From Piscinibacter sp. (GTDB lineage: Bacteria; Pseudomonadota; Gammaproteobacteria; Burkholderiales; Burkholderiaceae_C), in contig JAHBZL010000020.1 in assembly GCA_019635485.1 (NCBI GenBank), positions 18,278 through 82,277 of the forward strand: a DNA stretch of 64,000 nucleotides. Direction: 5' to 3'. Position numbers and translations under genes: made by a program. The stretch's first letter is position 1; each line of letters opens with the position of its first letter. Shown piece by piece: positions 16,205-62,973 of the stretch. Under the pieces are notes generated by a model, which saw nothing but the letters and a program-made list of their open reading frames with translations, had not been told where the DNA came from and did no database searches.

Positions 16205-18868
16205 TCATGGCAGCTCGCGGTGCAGGCCGATCAGGCCGCCGCGTGCCGGCTCGAAGGTGAAGCCGGCGCGGCGCGCGAGCGCGGCCATGCCCGGGTTCTC
16301 GGGCAGGCATTCGCCGTGCACCTCCTGCACGCCGCGCTCGCGGAGGTAGCGCATCAGCTTGTCCATCAGCGTGCGGCCGAGTCCGCGCCGCTGCCACCCG
16401 GTGCGCACCTGGACCGCGAACTCGGCACGCCGGTTGTCCGGGTCGCAGACGGCCCGCGCCTCGCCGAGCAGGCCGTCGTCGCCGGCGTCCGGCAGCACGG
16501 CGACGAAGGTCATCTCGCGGTCGTAGTCGATCTGGCTGTAGCGCGCGAGCTCGGAGTGCGGCACCTCGCGGCGCGCGAAGAAGAAGCGCAGCCGCATGTC
16601 GCTCGGCGTCGCATGGGCGTAGAAGGACTGCAGGCGCGCCTCGTCGTCCGGCCGGATCGGGCGCAGCAGCACCGCGTGCCCGTCGACCTCGATCGACTCC
16701 TCGTGCTGCCCCGGGTACGGCAGGATCGCGAGCCGTTCGCCGGGCTGCGCGATCGTCGCGCGCACACGCACACGCGCGTCCAGCGCGACCACACCGCGCT
16801 CGTCGGCCAGCAGCGGGTTTATGTCGAGTTCGACCAGTTCGGGCAGCTCGCACACCAGCTGCGAGACCTTCAGCAGGCTGCCGGCCAGCGCCTCGCGGTC
16901 GACCGCGGCGCGGTCGCGGTAGCCGGCCAGCAGCGCGGCGACGCGCGTGCGGCCGATCAGGTCGTTGGCGAGCACGCTGTTCAGCGGCGGCAGCGCCATC
17001 GCGCGGTCCTTCAGCACCTCGACCGCAGTGCCGCCCTGGCCGAACAGGATCACCGGGCCGAACACCGGATCGCTTGCGACGCCGACGATCAGCTCGTGCG
17101 CGTGCGGACGCCGCACCATCGCCTGCACCGTGAAGCCGGTGAGCCGGGCGTCCGGCCGCAGCGACTGCACGCGGGCGGCCATCGCCGCAGCCGCGACGCG
17201 CACGGCGTCGGCATCGGGCAGGTCGAGCGCGACGCCGCCGACGTCGGACTTGTGCGAGATCTGCGGTGACACGACCTTCAGCGCGACCGGGAAGCCGATG
17301 TCCGCCGCGGCCTGCGCGGCCGCTTCCCCGTCCGCCACGCGGCGTGTCTCGACCACCGGGATGCCGTAGGCCGCGAGCAGCGCCTTGGCCTCGAACTCGT
17401 CGAGCATCTCGCGGCCGTCGTCGAGCGCGCGGCGCACCACCGCGCGGGCGGCTTCCGGGTCGTGCGCGAAGTCCGGAGCCGCGCGCGGCGTCTGCAGCAA
17501 TGCCTCGCGGTTGCGCCGGTACTGCACCATGTGCGTGAAGGCCGCGACGGCGCGCTCCGGCGTCGCGTAGGTCGGCACGCCGGCGCGCGCGCAGGCATCG
17601 GCCGCGGCGCGCACCACGTCGGCACCCATCCAGCAGGCCAGCACCGGCTTGCCGGGTGCGGCCAGCAGCGGCACCACGGCGCGGGCGATGTCCTGGCTCG
17701 GCACGACGGCGGTGGGCGCGTGCATGAACAGCACCGCGTCCACCTCCCGCGCGGCCAGCAGCACCTGCAGCGCGGCGGTGTAGCGCTCGGTGGGCGCATC
17801 GCCGATCAGGTCGACCGGGTTGCCGTGCGACCACGTGGCCGGCAGCACCGCGTCCAGCGCGGCGAGCGTGGCCGGTTCCAGCGCCGCCAGCCGCCCGCCG
17901 GACAGCGCCAGCGCATCGGCCGCCAGCACGCCGGCGCCGCCGCCGTTGGTGACGATCGCCAGCCGGTCGCCGTACAGCGGCCGGGCGCGCGCCAGCGTCT
18001 CCGCGGCGTCGAACAGGTGGTCCAGCGTCTCGACGCGCAGCATGCCGGCGCGTCGGATCGCGGCATCGAACACCGCGTCGGAGCCGGCCAGCGCGCCGGT
18101 GTGGGAGGCCGCGGCCCTGGCGCCTTCCGGTGCCCGGCCGGACTTCACGACGATGACCGGCTTGTTGCGCGCGGCCGCCCGTGCCGCCGACATGAACTTG
18201 CGCGCCGCCTTGACGGACTCGAGATAGAGCAGCACCGCGCTCGTGCCGCCGTCCGAGGCGAGGTAGTCGAGCAGGTCGCCGACGTCGACGTCGGCGCTGT
18301 CGCCCAGCGAGACGAAGTGCGAGAAGCCGATCGCGTTCGAGTTGGCCCAGTCCAGCAGCGCGGTGGCCAGTGCGCCGGACTGCGAGACGAAGGCGAGCCG
18401 CCCCGGCGTGGCCGAGGTGTGCGCGAAGCTGGCGTTCAGGCGCGCGCCCGGCACCAGTTCGCCAAGGCAGTTCGGCCCGAGCACGCGCAGCAGCCAGGGC
18501 CGCGCCGCATCGAGCATCGCCTGTTCCAGGCTGCGCCCGTCGCCGGCCGGCGCCTTCAACCCGGCGCCGAGCACGATCGCGGCGCGGCAGCCCTTGCGTC
18601 CGAGCTGCTCGATCAGGCCCGGGATGGTCGACGCCGGCGTGCACAGCACGGCGAGGTCCGGCGCCTCGGGCAGGGCGTCGACGTCGCGCCAGGCCGGCTC
18701 GCCGCCGACCCGATCGTGCCGCAGGTTGACCGGCCAGACCGGACCCGCGAACCCGGCGTCGCGCAGGTTGTGCATCACCAGCGCGCCGAGGCTGTGCGGG
18801 CGGTCGGAGGCGCCGACCACGGCGACGGAGCGCGGCCGGAACAGCCGCTCGAGGTTGCGGACGCTCAT
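16205..18868 (-). CDS. Pat-like protein: ADP-forming acyl-CoA synthetase fused to GNAT acetyltransferase
   Basis: 887 residues. Domains in order: a CoA-binding Rossmann domain (about 8-130, starting RSVAVVGASDRP), succinyl-CoA ligase-like flavodoxin domains (about 150-460, with SHTGALAG), an ATP-grasp domain (about 480-700) and a C-terminal GNAT domain (about 725-887, with QRRGLGRTLMDKL as the acetyl-CoA loop). This is the layout of Salmonella Pat/YfiQ, the protein lysine acetyltransferase that controls acetyl-CoA synthetase and other enzymes. Its ATG overlaps the stop of a 38-codon ORF (ATGA), which overlaps phaC in the same way. Acyl-CoA-linked regulation beside a polyester synthase is an attractive but unproven link. 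Confidence 0.9.
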   Translation of the reverse strand: MSVRNLERLFRPRSVAVVGASDRPHSLGALVMHNLRDAGFAGPVWPVNLRHDRVGGEPAWRDVDALPEAPDLAVLCTPASTIPGLIEQLGRKGCRAAIVLGAGLKAPAGDGRSLEQAMLDAARPWLLRVLGPNCLGELVPGARLNASFAHTSATPGRLAFVSQSGALATALLDWANSNAIGFSHFVSLGDSADVDVGDLLDYLASDGGTSAVLLYLESVKAARKFMSAARAAARNKPVIVVKSGRAPEGARAAASHTGALAGSDAVFDAAIRRAGMLRVETLDHLFDAAETLARARPLYGDRLAIVTNGGGAGVLAADALALSGGRLAALEPATLAALDAVLPATWSHGNPVDLIGDAPTERYTAALQVLLAAREVDAVLFMHAPTAVVPSQDIARAVVPLLAAPGKPVLACWMGADVVRAAADACARAGVPTYATPERAVAAFTHMVQYRRNREALLQTPRAAPDFAHDPEAARAVVRRALDDGREMLDEFEAKALLAAYGIPVVETRRVADGEAAAQAAADIGFPVALKVVSPQISHKSDVGGVALDLPDADAVRVAAAAMAARVQSLRPDARLTGFTVQAMVRRPHAHELIVGVASDPVFGPVILFGQGGTAVEVLKDRAMALPPLNSVLANDLIGRTRVAALLAGYRDRAAVDREALAGSLLKVSQLVCELPELVELDINPLLADERGVVALDARVRVRATIAQPGERLAILPYPGQHEESIEVDGHAVLLRPIRPDDEARLQSFYAHATPSDMRLRFFFARREVPHSELARYSQIDYDREMTFVAVLPDAGDDGLLGEARAVCDPDNRRAEFAVQVRTGWQRRGLGRTLMDKLMRYLRERGVQEVHGECLPENPGMAALARRAGFTFEPARGGLIGLHRELP

Positions 18869-18981
18869 GACTGCCCCTCGTCGAACGGGTACGTTCGACG
18901 ATCCCCCAGGGGGATGCGGGCCGGCTTGGGAGCGGCCCGGCGCTCGGCCCGCCGAAGACGGGTGAATTCAGGTGGCGTCAT
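18865..18981 (-). CDS. 38-codon ORF bridging phaC and the Pat-like gene (copy 1)
   Basis: The ORF starts at ATG 18981-18979 inside the phaC stop and ends with TGA 18867-18865 inside the Pat-like start, so both junctions are ATGA overlaps. The product is very basic, with a RAERRAAPKPARIP core at residues 11-24 and an acidic FDEG near the end. A second copy with the same layout is at 61901-62017. The four differences in the shared 79-bp block all change amino acids, so the DNA or RNA may be what is conserved. Translation is possible but unproven; it may be a by-product of a repeat or a leader that couples translation. Confidence 0.45.
   Translation of the reverse strand: MTPPEFTRLRRAERRAAPKPARIPLGDRRTYPFDEGQS
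18874..18952 (-). repeat. 79-bp dispersed intergenic element, copy 1
   Basis: Matches 61910-61988 at 75 of 79 positions. In minus-strand RNA it has three potential hairpins: GCGGGCCG with CGGCCCGC around 21 nt, a near-palindrome ATCCCCC-T-GGGGGAT, and a ten-base-pair stem TCGTCGAACG/CGTTCGACGA (18878-18887 with 18892-18901). The last is followed at once by the GGGG Shine-Dalgarno of the Pat-like gene. A ten-base direct repeat, TCATGACTGC, flanks the unit at 18865-18874 and 18978-18987. Confidence 0.8.
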
Positions 18982-20723
18982 GACTGCAGCACGTAGCGTC
19001 CCGGCGCGTCGTCCAGCGGCGTCAGCACCCCGCCGCCCAGCGCCGGCGGGGTCACCGGCCGGCCGGAGCGCTGCGCGAGCCAGCGCTGCCAGGGCACCCA
19101 CCAGGAGCCCGGGTGCACCGCGGCGGCGTCGAACCATTGCTGCGGATCCACGTACGGCGCATCCGCCGCGCGGTGCGCATGCCGGTAGTGCGCGCCAGCG
19201 AATGCGCCGGGGCCGGTGGGCGGGTTCACGATCCCGACGTTGTGGCCACCCCCGGTGAGCACGAAGTCCATGTCGGTGTCGGTGAGCAGGTGGATCTTGT
19301 AGACCGAGCGCCAGGGCGACACGTGGTCGCGCTCGGTGGCGACGCAGAACACCGGCAGGCGGATGTCCTGCACGGCGACCGGCCGGCCGCGCACGCGGTA
19401 GCGGCCCTCGGCGAGGTCGTTGTGCAGGTACAGGCCGCGCAGGTATTCGCCGTGCATGCGCGCCGGCATGCGCGTCGCATCGGCGTTCCAGGCGCGCAGG
19501 TCGGTCAGTGGCGTCTGCGCGCCCATCAGGTACTCGTGCACGAGCTTGGACCAGACCAGGTCCTTCGAGTTGATCAGCGCGAAGGCGCCGGCCATCTGGC
19601 GCCCGTCGAGGCAACCACGCTCGGCCATGATGTCCTCCAGGAAGGCGATCTGGCTCTCGTCGATGAACAGGCCCAGTTCGCCCGGCTCCTGGAAGTCGAT
19701 CTGCGCGGCCAGCAGCGAGAGCGACTTCAGCGCGCTGCCGTCGTCACGGGCCAGGGCCGCCGCCGCGATGGCCAGCAACGTGCCGCCGAGGCAGTAGCCG
19801 ACCGCGTGGATGCCGCGCCGGGGCAGGGCACGCTGCACGGCGTCGAGCGCGGCCAGCACGCCCAGTTCCACGTAGTCCTCCATCGCCAGCTCGCGCTCCT
19901 CCGGGCCCGGATTGCGCCACGAGATCATGAACACGGTGTGACCCTGCTCGACGAGGTGGCGCACCATCGAGTTGTGCGGCGAGAGGTCGAGGATGTAGTA
20001 CTTCATGATCCACGACGGCACGATCAGCACCGGCTCGGGATGAACCTTCGGCGTGGCCGGCGCGTACTGGATCAGCTCGATCAGCCGGTTGCGGAACACC
20101 ACCTTGCCCGGGGTCAGCGCGACCGTGCGACCGGGCACGAACTTCTCGGCGTCCTTCGGCTTGCCGTCGGACAGCACCGCCATCGCGTCGCGCCACCAGT
20201 TGGCCGCGCCTTCGACGAGGTTGGCGCCGCCGCGGCGCAGCGTCTCCTCGAGCACCTCGGGGTTGAGCGCGACCGAGTTGGACGGCGACAGCGTGTCCAG
20301 CACCTGGCGTGCGACGAAGGCCGCCACCTCCTCGTGGTGGGCCGAGACGCCGCGCACGCCGCGCGTGGCCTCCTGCCACCACTGCTCCCAGAGCAGAAAG
20401 CCCTGCGCCATCGCCTGATGCGGCGCGTGCCGCCAGGCCGGCCGCGTGAAGCGGTGGTCCTGCGGCGCCGGCTCGATGCAGGGGTCGTCCTCGCCGAGCG
20501 CCGCGCTGTTCAGCCAGAGCCACCAGCGCATCGTCTTGCGCAACGCGCTCTCGCCCAGTTCGAGCTGCTTGCCCGGCGAGACGGCGAGGTGCGACCACCA
20601 GTCGAACAGCGCACTGCCGACCGCAATCGGCGAGATCCCGTGGGTCAGGCGCCCGACTGCGGCCTTGAGCGGGAGGTCCAGCGGTTGCGGGGTCGCGGCA
20701 GCGGGCAGTGTGGGTTCGGGCAT
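18978..20723 (-). CDS. phaC: Poly(3-hydroxyalkanoate) synthase, PhaC
   Basis: 581 residues, typical of class I synthases, which polymerise (R)-3-hydroxyacyl-CoA into storage polyester granules. The alpha/beta hydrolase core has the lipase-like box GYCLGG with nucleophile Cys311. The other triad members are visible as Asp in ATERDHVSPW and His in GGGHNVGI. The N-terminal PhaC domain (about 90-260) ends with the conserved PSWIMKYYILDL segment. No phaA, phaB or phasin gene is nearby. It heads a minus-strand run, with the next ORF overlapping its stop codon. The 321 bp before its start are shared with the divergent apbE operon. Confidence 0.93.
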   Translation of the reverse strand: MPEPTLPAAATPQPLDLPLKAAVGRLTHGISPIAVGSALFDWWSHLAVSPGKQLELGESALRKTMRWWLWLNSAALGEDDPCIEPAPQDHRFTRPAWRHAPHQAMAQGFLLWEQWWQEATRGVRGVSAHHEEVAAFVARQVLDTLSPSNSVALNPEVLEETLRRGGANLVEGAANWWRDAMAVLSDGKPKDAEKFVPGRTVALTPGKVVFRNRLIELIQYAPATPKVHPEPVLIVPSWIMKYYILDLSPHNSMVRHLVEQGHTVFMISWRNPGPEERELAMEDYVELGVLAALDAVQRALPRRGIHAVGYCLGGTLLAIAAAALARDDGSALKSLSLLAAQIDFQEPGELGLFIDESQIAFLEDIMAERGCLDGRQMAGAFALINSKDLVWSKLVHEYLMGAQTPLTDLRAWNADATRMPARMHGEYLRGLYLHNDLAEGRYRVRGRPVAVQDIRLPVFCVATERDHVSPWRSVYKIHLLTDTDMDFVLTGGGHNVGIVNPPTGPGAFAGAHYRHAHRAADAPYVDPQQWFDAAAVHPGSWWVPWQRWLAQRSGRPVTPPALGGGVLTPLDDAPGRYVLQS

Positions 20724-61511: not shown

Positions 61512-61904
61512 CTACGCCGCCTCGCCGTCCAGGTAGTACCAGCGGCCGCCCTCGCGCACGAAGCGGCTGGTTTCCTCGAGCCGCTGGCCGCGCCCGTGCA
61601 GCCGCGTGCGGGCGACGAAGTGGACCGTGGCGTGGTCCGCGTCCTGTGCGATGTGCCGGCGTACCTCCAGGCCCAGCCACTTCAGCCCGGGCGGATCCGG
61701 GTCGAGGGCCGCCGGCCGGCGGCTCGGGTGCCAGGTCGCGAGCAGGTAGCCGTGCAGGCCGAGCACGAAGGCGCAGTAGCGCGAGCGCATCAGGCTTTCG
61801 GCGTCGGGCGCCTGCAGGTGCTGCGCGCCGGCGTGCCAGCGGCCGCAGCAATCGGCGTAGCGGGGGCCGCGCCCGCAGGGGCAGGGCGGTTCCGGTGCGG
61901 TCAT
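61512..61904 (-). CDS. ychJ: YchJ-like protein with SEC-C motif
   Basis: 130 residues from ATG 61904. The zinc-binding SEC-C motif is at the N-terminus: CPCGRGPRYADCCGRWH with Cys8, Cys10, Cys19 and Cys20. The rest is the NTF2-like UPF0225 domain (LMRSRYCAFVLGLHGYLLATWHPS, TVHFVARTRL, ETSRFVREGGRWYYLDG). Function unknown. The start codon overlaps the stop of the 38-codon ORF at 61901-62017, and the GGGG before it comes from the shared repeat block. A GTG at 61910 is an alternative start. Confidence 0.9.
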   Translation of the reverse strand: MTAPEPPCPCGRGPRYADCCGRWHAGAQHLQAPDAESLMRSRYCAFVLGLHGYLLATWHPSRRPAALDPDPPGLKWLGLEVRRHIAQDADHATVHFVARTRLHGRGQRLEETSRFVREGGRWYYLDGEAA

Positions 61905-62017
61905 GACCACCCCTCGTCGAAGGAGTACCTTCGACGATCCCCCGGGGGGATGCGGGCCGGCTTGGGAGCGGCCCGGCGCTCGGCCCGCGGCAGACTGGTT
62001 GACACAGGGTGTCTCAT
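61901..62017 (-). CDS. 38-codon ORF bridging the MarR-GNAT and YchJ-like genes (copy 2)
   Basis: ATG 62017-62015 lies in the stop of the MarR-GNAT gene and TGA 61903-61901 lies in the start of the YchJ-like gene: ATGA overlaps at both ends, and the same total length (117 bp) as the copy at 18865-18981. The first ten codons differ between copies; from codon 11 the RAERRAAPKPARIP core and the GDRR, Y, FDEG residues are the same. Whether a peptide is made is unknown. See the repeat entry for the RNA-structure evidence. Confidence 0.45.
   Translation of the reverse strand: MRHPVSTSLPRAERRAAPKPARIPPGDRRRYSFDEGWS
61910..61988 (-). repeat. 79-bp dispersed intergenic element, copy 2
   Basis: 75 of 79 bases match 18874-18952. 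The stem next to the Shine-Dalgarno is TCGTCGAAGG/CCTTCGACGA (61914-61923 with 61928-61937); relative to copy 1, one pair changed from C-G to G-C with both bases altered. The stretch from the block to the upstream stop codon is 25 bases in both copies but only about 56% identical. Confidence 0.8.
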
Positions 62018-62973
62018 GCCAGCAGCAGCTCCCAGGTCTCGCCGACCAGGTCGTGCCCGAAGCTGTGGTGCGGTTCGCTGTCGAGCAGCCGGTAGCCGGC
62101 CTTGGCGTAGATCGCGCGGGCGGCGTCCAGGTTGCGGTTGGTCCACAGCAGGATGCGCTTGTAGCGCTTCTCGCGGGCGAAGCGCTCGCATTCGGCCACC
62201 AGGCGCACGCCCAGGCCCTGGCCGCGGGCCGCCGGCTCGACCAGCAGCATGCGCAGCTGGGCGGCGCCGGCGATCACCTGCTGCGAACGTTCGTCGCGGG
62301 CCTGCACGAGGAACACGCAGCCGAGGTTGGCACCGTCGCGTTCCGCGATCCAGCAGGCTTCGCGGGCGGGTTCGAAGTGGTCGACGAAGTCCGCCGCGAT
62401 GCGCGCCACCAGGGCCTCGAAGGCCTCGCTCCAGCCGTATTCCTGCGCGTACAGCGCGCCGTGGCGGCCGATCACCCAGCCCAGGTCGCCAGGCCGCAGC
62501 GGGCGCAGCTGCACCGGCGCGGCCGCGCGCGGGGTGTCCGTCAGCGTGTGTTCGATGCAGTCCATGGCCGCCAGCAGCGACTGCTGGCGGCGTTCGTCCA
62601 GCGCGGTCAGCAGCGCCCCGACCTGTTCGCGCGAGCGCTGGTCCAGCGGCGCGAACGCGCGCTGTCCGGCCGCGCTCAGGCTGAGCAGCTGCACGCGCGC
62701 GTCGTCCTTCGACCGGGCGCTGCGCACCAGGCCGCGTTCCTTGAGCCCGCGCAGCAAGCGGCTCAGGTAGCCGGGGTCGAGGTCGAGCTCGCGGGCCAGA
62801 TGACTGGCGGTGAGGCGGCCGTCGGCATGGGCCAGCTCCCAGAGCAGGCGCGACTCGGCCAACGAGAACGGGGTGTCCAGCAGGCCTTCGCCGAGCACGC
62901 CGATGCGGCGCGTGTAGAAGCGGTTGAAGCGCCGGACCGCCTCGATGCGGGCGGAGTCGGGCGAGGCGGGCAT
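62014..62973 (-). CDS. MarR regulator fused to GNAT acetyltransferase
   Basis: 319 residues. The N-terminal MarR winged helix (about 10-140) has FSLAESRLLWELAHADGRLTASHLARELDLDPGYLSRLLRGLKERGLV. The C-terminal GNAT domain (about 155-319) has the acetyl-CoA loop VEPAARGQGLGVRLVAECERFA. Such fusions couple a ligand-sensing DNA-binding part to an acetyltransferase; targets are mostly unknown. A near-palindrome, TTGAC-TTT-GGCAA (62996-63008), lies 23 bp upstream and could be its own operator. Divergent from imuA with a 100-bp gap. Confidence 0.9.
   Translation of the reverse strand: MPASPDSARIEAVRRFNRFYTRRIGVLGEGLLDTPFSLAESRLLWELAHADGRLTASHLARELDLDPGYLSRLLRGLKERGLVRSARSKDDARVQLLSLSAAGQRAFAPLDQRSREQVGALLTALDERRQQSLLAAMDCIEHTLTDTPRAAAPVQLRPLRPGDLGWVIGRHGALYAQEYGWSEAFEALVARIAADFVDHFEPAREACWIAERDGANLGCVFLVQARDERSQQVIAGAAQLRMLLVEPAARGQGLGVRLVAECERFAREKRYKRILLWTNRNLDAARAIYAKAGYRLLDSEPHHSFGHDLVGETWELLLA

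Follow-up and report, generated by a model that had tools for sequence, protein, structure and literature searches.

A structured, MIRU-like repeat in Piscinibacter and related Burkholderiales that appears to insert at start codons and may keep host genes translated

The mycobacterial interspersed repetitive units, MIRU (Supply et al. 1997, as cited in a 2025 review, PMC12548453), are short, dispersed and apparently mobile sequences located at start codons; according to the same review, the MIRU open reading frame (ORF) is coupled to the host gene at a spacing of −4 nucleotides (nt), which likely limits the effect of insertion. The beta-proteobacterial repeat element (BRE) of Bordetella and Comamonadaceae is GC-rich, ∼90 bp long, tandem and possibly mobile, with some copies overlapping ORF ends or sitting inside ORFs (PMC3110155), and the RPE of Rickettsia are palindromic mobile repeats of 105–146 bp that, through their open frames, form in-frame fusions with host proteins (PMC2229807). 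Overlapping gene pairs are usually coupled, as found for 13 of 14 tested pairs (PMC6728339). Here we describe a repeat, called R1 after the covariance model used to find it, from a 64,000-nt stretch of Piscinibacter sp. (GenBank assembly GCA_019635485.1, contig JAHBZL010000020.1, positions 18,278–82,277 of the forward strand; hereafter the window). We propose that it is a mobile, or formerly mobile, non-autonomous repeat of ∼90 or 117 bp that would insert at start codons, and that its linking mini-ORF and its own Shine-Dalgarno (SD) sequence would keep translation running. We give this reading a probability of roughly 0.78.

A block of 79 bp shared by the two copies in the window has 43 blastn matches in its own genome (5.0 Mb in 81 contigs), the block itself counted. 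Model R1 was built on 27 own-genome copies (alignment A2, from which divergent or interrupted own copies are excluded) and finds 48 matches in this genome at E ≤ 0.01. Across 60 genomes, the own one included, 16 have matches at E ≤ 0.001. These comprise all eight genomes of the genus, with 8–52 copies each, and outside the genus the genomes labeled G012 (33 copies), G020 (14) and G018 (6), with five further genomes holding one to five; the 24 genomes of other families have none at this threshold. The original prediction, made from the window alone, took the block, as one of two alternatives, to be part of a mobile or amplified element, and the search for further copies in the genome and in related Burkholderiales, with dozens in the former and matches throughout the genus, agrees with it. 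The exact core pattern occurs, among the matches listed, in named genomes of Piscinibacter, Methylibium, Rhizobacter, Aquabacterium, Roseateles, Pelomonas, Rubrivivax, Leptothrix, Ideonella and Rivibacter. In the wider order, under strict filters, 2 of 399 genomes matched at E ≤ 1e-6, both from the window's genus; the listing for that search gives ten other genomes of the family, with 377 unlisted. Tandem copies occur, with a period of mostly 90. In one locus of Methylibium rhizosphaerae (L148, 235–679) five cores stand in tandem, their period of 90 being divisible by three. At L040 (G000:C5:111446-111468) a short vestige of the repeat has ATGAGAACGCC joined directly to the end of helix P3, AGGGG and ATGA. 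Plasmid or phage cargo was considered and set aside: copy 2 of the window had no match in plasmid or phage collections, and a copy from Methylibium rhizosphaerae gave a single weak match, on a Mitsuaria plasmid.

To describe the junctions we pooled 207 R1 matches: 65 from relatives (64 of 68 matches, four from G012 being left out, plus one weak extra), 40 from the own genome (those of the 48 that lie within fetched loci, a few of them weak) and 102 from the named genomes (exact core pattern, among the matches listed). Dropping eight duplicates with identical flanks left 199. In 107 of these an ATG lies at the last base of the model, and no other single offset has more than six. This ATG is followed by A in 99 of the 107 copies, compared with 16 of 37 annotated ATG starts in a stretch of Methylibium plasmid, which is a small control. 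Strand and frame of the neighbors were called by a rule based on GC content at third codon positions (GC3). By this rule, coding to the right of the element runs forward in 155 copies, backward in 37 and unclearly in 7, and the downstream coding frame is in phase in 92 of the 99 ATGA copies. The motif AGGGG stands five bases before the ATG in 95 of 98 copies; comparison thus shows this putative SD sequence to be held at a fixed distance from the new start. Copies that do not end in ATG have other surroundings. Where the gene to the right runs backward, its stop codon lies −6 to +2 bases from the element end in 25 of 33; those with a forward gene include in-frame fusions (of the MoaC type, below) and starts slightly further on. 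When a non-ATG copy has a forward gene and is not followed by a tandem copy (46 cases), the gene frame is open through the core in 42, although this says little, since the other two frames are often open too (25 and 39).

Comparison with congeners demonstrates insertion into previously joined genes. The own genome carries the repeat at hisG-hisD, sdhA-sdhB, phaC-pat and moaC. For hisG-hisD, five of the six congeners having the locus are without insert, with overlap ATGA (four) or GTGA (one); the sixth (G003, L227) has a related sister repeat, described below, in opposite orientation, so that the R1 repeat in the own genome and the reversed sister repeat in G003 are independent hits on one junction. 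At sdhA-sdhB no R1-type insert is found in seven of seven congeners, and the gap is ∼7–17 bases in six of them. In the seventh (G002, L206) it is ∼55 bases, with no R1-type repeat by eye; it contains AGCTCACTTCG, a string shared with the sister repeat and perhaps a remnant of it. The genes phaC and pat are four bases apart and without insert in both congener loci where they adjoin, and the start of moaC is without insert in seven of seven congeners, the repeat being an in-frame N-terminal insert in the MoaC of the own genome. Two further loci, L027 (2693) and L028 (2648), seem to have the repeat fused in frame to N-termini that presumably belong to a tryptophan 2,3-dioxygenase and a cysteine desulfurase-like protein, respectively. 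Among nine other genomes of the family with a MarR-GNAT match, this gene adjoins ychJ without insert in three (located by script in one and by eye in two), once with ATGA and once with GTGA; in the remaining six no ychJ was seen next to it. These counts exclude one pat and two sdhB-like loci that are more distant paralogs and one sdhB whose start is cut off; there was no hisD locus from G005, and pat loci came from three congeners only. At sdhB, relatives have no stop-start overlap and the own genome has ATGA on either side of the element, which points to the start codon itself as the target. Insertion sites mostly read CATGA: C precedes the 5′ ATGA of 44 of 58 copies, versus 19 of 37 annotated plasmid starts (p = 0.016).

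In the window, the repeat and its neighbors are arranged as follows, gene identities being from Pfam.
18865–18981, minus strand: copy 1, full-length unit between phaC and the pat-like gene, with a 38-codon mini-ORF from ATG (18981) to TGA (18865)
18868–18952, minus strand: structured core of copy 1, model R1 positions 1–85, 107.6 bits
18916–18952, minus strand: helix P1 of copy 1, arms 18952–18942 and 18925–18916
18901–18915, minus strand: helix P2 of copy 1, AUCCCC...GGGGAU
18879–18900, minus strand: helix P3 of copy 1, the most variable of the helices
18874–18878, minus strand: SD-like AGGGG of copy 1, 5 nt 5′ of the pat-like ATG
61901–62017, minus strand: copy 2, full-length unit between the MarR-GNAT gene and ychJ, with a 38-codon mini-ORF
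61904–61988, minus strand: structured core of copy 2, model R1, 108.1 bits
61910–61914, minus strand: SD-like AGGGG of copy 2, 5 nt 5′ of the ychJ ATG
18978–20723, minus strand: PhaC gene, upstream of copy 1
16205–18868, minus strand: ATP-grasp/succinyl-CoA-ligase/GNAT (Pat-like) gene, downstream of copy 1
62014–62973, minus strand: MarR-GNAT fusion gene, upstream of copy 2
61512–61904, minus strand: YchJ gene, downstream of copy 2
Both mini-ORFs start inside the upstream stop (ATGA at 18981–18978 in copy 1 and 62017–62014 in copy 2) and stop inside the downstream start (ATGA at 18868–18865 and 61904–61901). The original prediction had described just this, namely twin 117-bp units, each a 38-codon ORF with an ATGA overlap at either end, joined to phaC and a Pat-like gene and to MarR-GNAT and YchJ-like genes. 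The coordinates hold, Pfam agrees with the gene names, and the downstream genes look unrelated, as it had said of the flanking genes. Without gaps the two copies are identical at 100 of 117 positions, and direct alignment recovers the predicted 79-bp block with 75 identities. As a measure of chance, in-frame frames of 20–53 codons with ATGA at both ends number one on the plus and two on the minus strand of the window.

The frame of the mini-ORF was assessed in 90 ATGA copies, after excluding the 9 of 99 preceded by a tandem copy. An open ATG in phase with the TGA lies at most 40 nt upstream in 71 of the 90, compared with 3 and 6 in the other two frames. Of the remaining 19, nine offer GTG or TTG instead, seven are closed, and three stay open far upstream but lack a start within 40 nt. 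Comparison thus shows that in most start-codon copies a predicted mini-ORF opens close to the 5′ terminus of the element, its stop overlapping the new start. If openness is ignored, the 40 bases upstream contain an ATG in 77 of the 90, and in 69 of these 77 the closest one is in phase with the TGA. This agreement spans spacers of 19 different lengths (2–38 bases) and is found for cores of different length: 52 of 56 for lengths of 1 mod 3 (mostly 85 nt) and 16 of 18 for 2 mod 3 (mostly 86 nt), being less clear for 0 mod 3 (1 of 3). A control is provided by the 28 copies whose right-hand gene runs backward: among these, the closest ATG shares the phase of the TGA in 6 of 14 (versus 69 of 77; Fisher p = 0.0003). 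When every ATG within 36 bases is counted, the three frames stand at 85:7:6, versus 9:5:4 where the right-hand gene runs backward. The frame is kept in 64 of 78 copies with a co-oriented upstream gene versus 2 of 6 with an opposite one (p = 0.018). The excess of in-phase starts where a forward gene follows points to selection on the frame, in counts that ignore the descent of the copies.

Such a pattern could also be produced by a conserved small protein of ∼38 amino acids, a leader or a protein with a function of its own, spread by duplication; a small protein family used as a coupling leader was one suggestion of the original prediction. Indeed, 35 of 47 listed frames read RAERRAAPKPARIP...DEG or small variants. 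Nine of the 47, however, read the same stretch in another frame, as GPSAGPLPSRPAIP or variants, and helix P3 varies by paired substitution, changing the residues. Moreover, the 19 ATGA copies mentioned above have no open in-frame ATG within 40 nt (nine using GTG or TTG), and at moaC the stretch forms a fusion with a different protein. Judged by these frames, the conserved feature is the nucleotides, not the peptide; we regard a small protein as very improbable, and that suggestion finds no support here.

On the gene strand, the core consists of P1 (GCGGGCC...GGCCCGC), P2 (AUCCCC...GGGGAU), the variable P3, AGGGG, five bases and AUG. Comparison demonstrates that this predicted three-hairpin, RNA-type fold is kept through compensatory change. 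In 99 distinct sequences from the named genomes, 95.2% of cells pair and 22 of 25 pairs show changes on both sides; cells with double change number 137, versus 26.3 in shuffled and 10–27 in slid versions, in an alignment that was fitted to model R1 and thus itself favors the structure. When the 27 own copies are aligned with MAFFT, double change is found in 9 of 25 pairs, with 49 such cells versus 14.0. One pair of P3 positions (columns 67 and 89 of alignment A5) is non-standard in 64 of 99 sequences, although the rest of the helix covaries; judged by eye these are mostly G facing A, perhaps a binding feature. Some copies carry additional structure. In the own copies L026 2545–2659, L033 2555–2669 and L032 1917–2030, the P2 loop has an extra hairpin of ∼30 bases, GGGCCACGAAGTGGGCCAC...GTGGCCC or near it, possibly a repeat nested within a repeat; long cores of 112–115 nt are also present in G012. 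The own copy L022 2592–2706 has a different insert, GGGCCACGAAGAGGCCCATTTGGTGGGCCTT, inside P1, and its mini-ORF remains in frame.

A conserved three-hairpin fold immediately 5′ of an SD sequence is also what a cis-regulatory RNA would look like, that is, a riboswitch or protein-bound leader serving a regulon, with the mini-ORF frame incidental; one predicted fold allows AGGGG to pair with CCCC in P2. Masking of the SD sequence by the fold is unsupported by folding predictions, in which its mean unpaired probability (n = 88) is 0.28 with the element versus 0.32 without, and higher without in 54 of the 88. The fold may hence serve mobility rather than control. A regulon is also at odds with downstream genes that look unrelated, and a leader with the 25 of 33 backward-gene copies that abut a stop codon; a riboswitch would predict no mini-ORF frame. 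An Rfam scan of the window yielded tRNAs alone and no credible match to the repeat, and a scan of five other loci (E up to 1) gave one microRNA-family hit far under its cut-off. A candidate RNA named 'Burkholderiales-1' is given without an Rfam accession in PMC2864571. We consider it highly unlikely that the R1 repeat is a regulatory RNA.

The sister repeat, with an identical P1-P2-P3 order, was found in 22 of 60 genomes and 15 of 53 genera, and also on plasmid records of Burkholderia, Paraburkholderia, Variovorax and Azoarcus. Its orientation is mostly opposite to that of the R1 repeat, with a backward gene on its left in 26 of 30 loci. Its junction signals are GGGAGG and TGACATG or ATGA, those of the R1 repeat being AGGGG and ATGA. 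A regular expression applied to the available loci found 25 sister copies; a start junction (TGA-n-ATG or ATGA) is present in 15 of them and absent from 10. The upstream ATG is in phase in 14 of the 15, one of them with an internal stop, so that 13 frames are open. Annotation of Azoarcus sp. KH32C places a stop and a start on either side of the sister copy that read exactly ATGA...ATGA in one frame; three other plasmid records are unannotated at this junction.

REP sequences are numerous short palindromic chromosomal repeats linked to RAYT (Y1) transposases, and we know of none that carry a coupling frame. Alternatively, a resident Y1 transposase of the RAYT/IS200 type could move the R1 repeat as a REP-like palindrome that is simply tolerated at gene ends and whose frame agreement is inherited. 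It is palindromic, occurs in tandem with a period of mostly 90 and tends to finish in CAT. Nevertheless, Y1_Tnp (PF01797) is found neither in the own genome (84% complete) nor in six of seven congeners, despite 8–52 repeat copies; there is one match each in G003, G012 and G020, all repeat carriers. Inheritance of the frame also fits poorly with its loss where no forward gene follows (6 of 14 in phase) and with many spacer lengths that are nearly all in phase. We judge this explanation unlikely.

Several observations weigh against insertion at start codons with coupling through the mini-ORF. Of the 199 copies, 92 have no ATG at their end, and the strand and frame of neighbors come from the GC3 rule instead of annotation. 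The frame is closed in 7 of 90 ATGA copies and startless within 40 nt in three more, and the 2 of 6 frames kept beside an opposite-strand upstream gene indicate that coupling is not universal. Part of the frame agreement may be inherited along with the repeat, the descent of the copies being uncorrected. Nor do the folding predictions show the SD sequence to be hidden by the repeat. A target duplication is indistinguishable from an element that itself ends in CAT, and no transposase was identified for the repeat. The original prediction of an element that fits between coupled genes and supplies a ribosome-binding site is to be amended. Copy number, empty sites, frame conservation and the fixed AGGGG-ATG spacing support it, but the site is the start codon itself, and overlap with a stop is optional, as sdhB demonstrates. 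Likewise, its expectation that copies sit at junctions with ATGA applies to the 99 of 199 that end in it, whereas about half lie elsewhere, at stops of opposite genes, in tandem arrays or in N-terminal fusions.

If the R1 repeat inserts at start codons as proposed, the displaced start codon and its ribosome-binding site would now drive the mini-ORF. The ribosome would traverse the repeat, halt at the UGA within AUGA and restart on the host gene aided by the AGGGG of the element, the mini-ORF peptide being probably unused. Because the host gene would stay translated, insertion would be nearly silent, which may explain why the repeat persists in operons such as sdhAB and hisGD. It offers a second case, and one with many natural variants, of repeats adapted to passage through translational coupling. 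With 99 ATGA copies, located in sdh, his and further gene pairs, one could learn what stopping and restarting need in terms of frame, spacing, SD sequence and structure, and gene finders may misplace starts or overlook mini-ORFs at such junctions.

Literature searches, largely at abstract level, yielded no recognized account of the R1 repeat, its start-codon rule or the sister repeat. The kind of element is already known, since the MIRU review describes an equal logic. Like MIRU, the R1 repeat is present in dozens of short dispersed copies per genome (48 in the own genome, 8–52 across the genus), its ORF overlaps the downstream start as AUGA, at −4 nt (99 of 107), and, as empty sites in relatives suggest, it inserts at start codons. 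To our knowledge, MIRU is without palindromic structure. The R1 repeat has three hairpins with compensatory change (22 of 25 pairs doubly changed), and we therefore do not class it as MIRU; it also has AGGGG at a fixed distance, and MIRU, known to us by description, belongs to another phylum. With BRE it shares a length of ∼90 bp, tandem copies and a betaproteobacterial host, and differs in its start-codon rule and mini-ORF; the relevant parts of the BRE account propose neither, nor a function (PMC3110155). Judged by that description, BRE may correspond to the sister repeat or constitute a third family. The in-frame fusion at moaC (seven of seven congeners empty) resembles RPE, but such fusions are a minority of R1 copies; RPE, also known by description, lie within proteins or between genes, whereas start codons, with stop and restart, account for the largest class of R1 copies, in a betaproteobacterial host. 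Unlike REP/RAYT systems, the R1 repeat is accompanied by Y1_Tnp in just one of the seven congeners (G003). More tentatively, and at slightly less than even odds, start-codon-splitting repeats with their own coupling mini-ORF would be a general class of bacterial mobile elements that arose more than once, comprising MIRU in mycobacteria and at least two sister repeats of Burkholderiales and relatives with one fold and opposite reading; host translation would let them persist in core operons, and the fold would be the recognition signal of a mobilizing enzyme. As far as its sequence allows us to judge, the R1 repeat itself is a structured, start-codon-targeting, MIRU-like repeat in another phylum, with a sister family.

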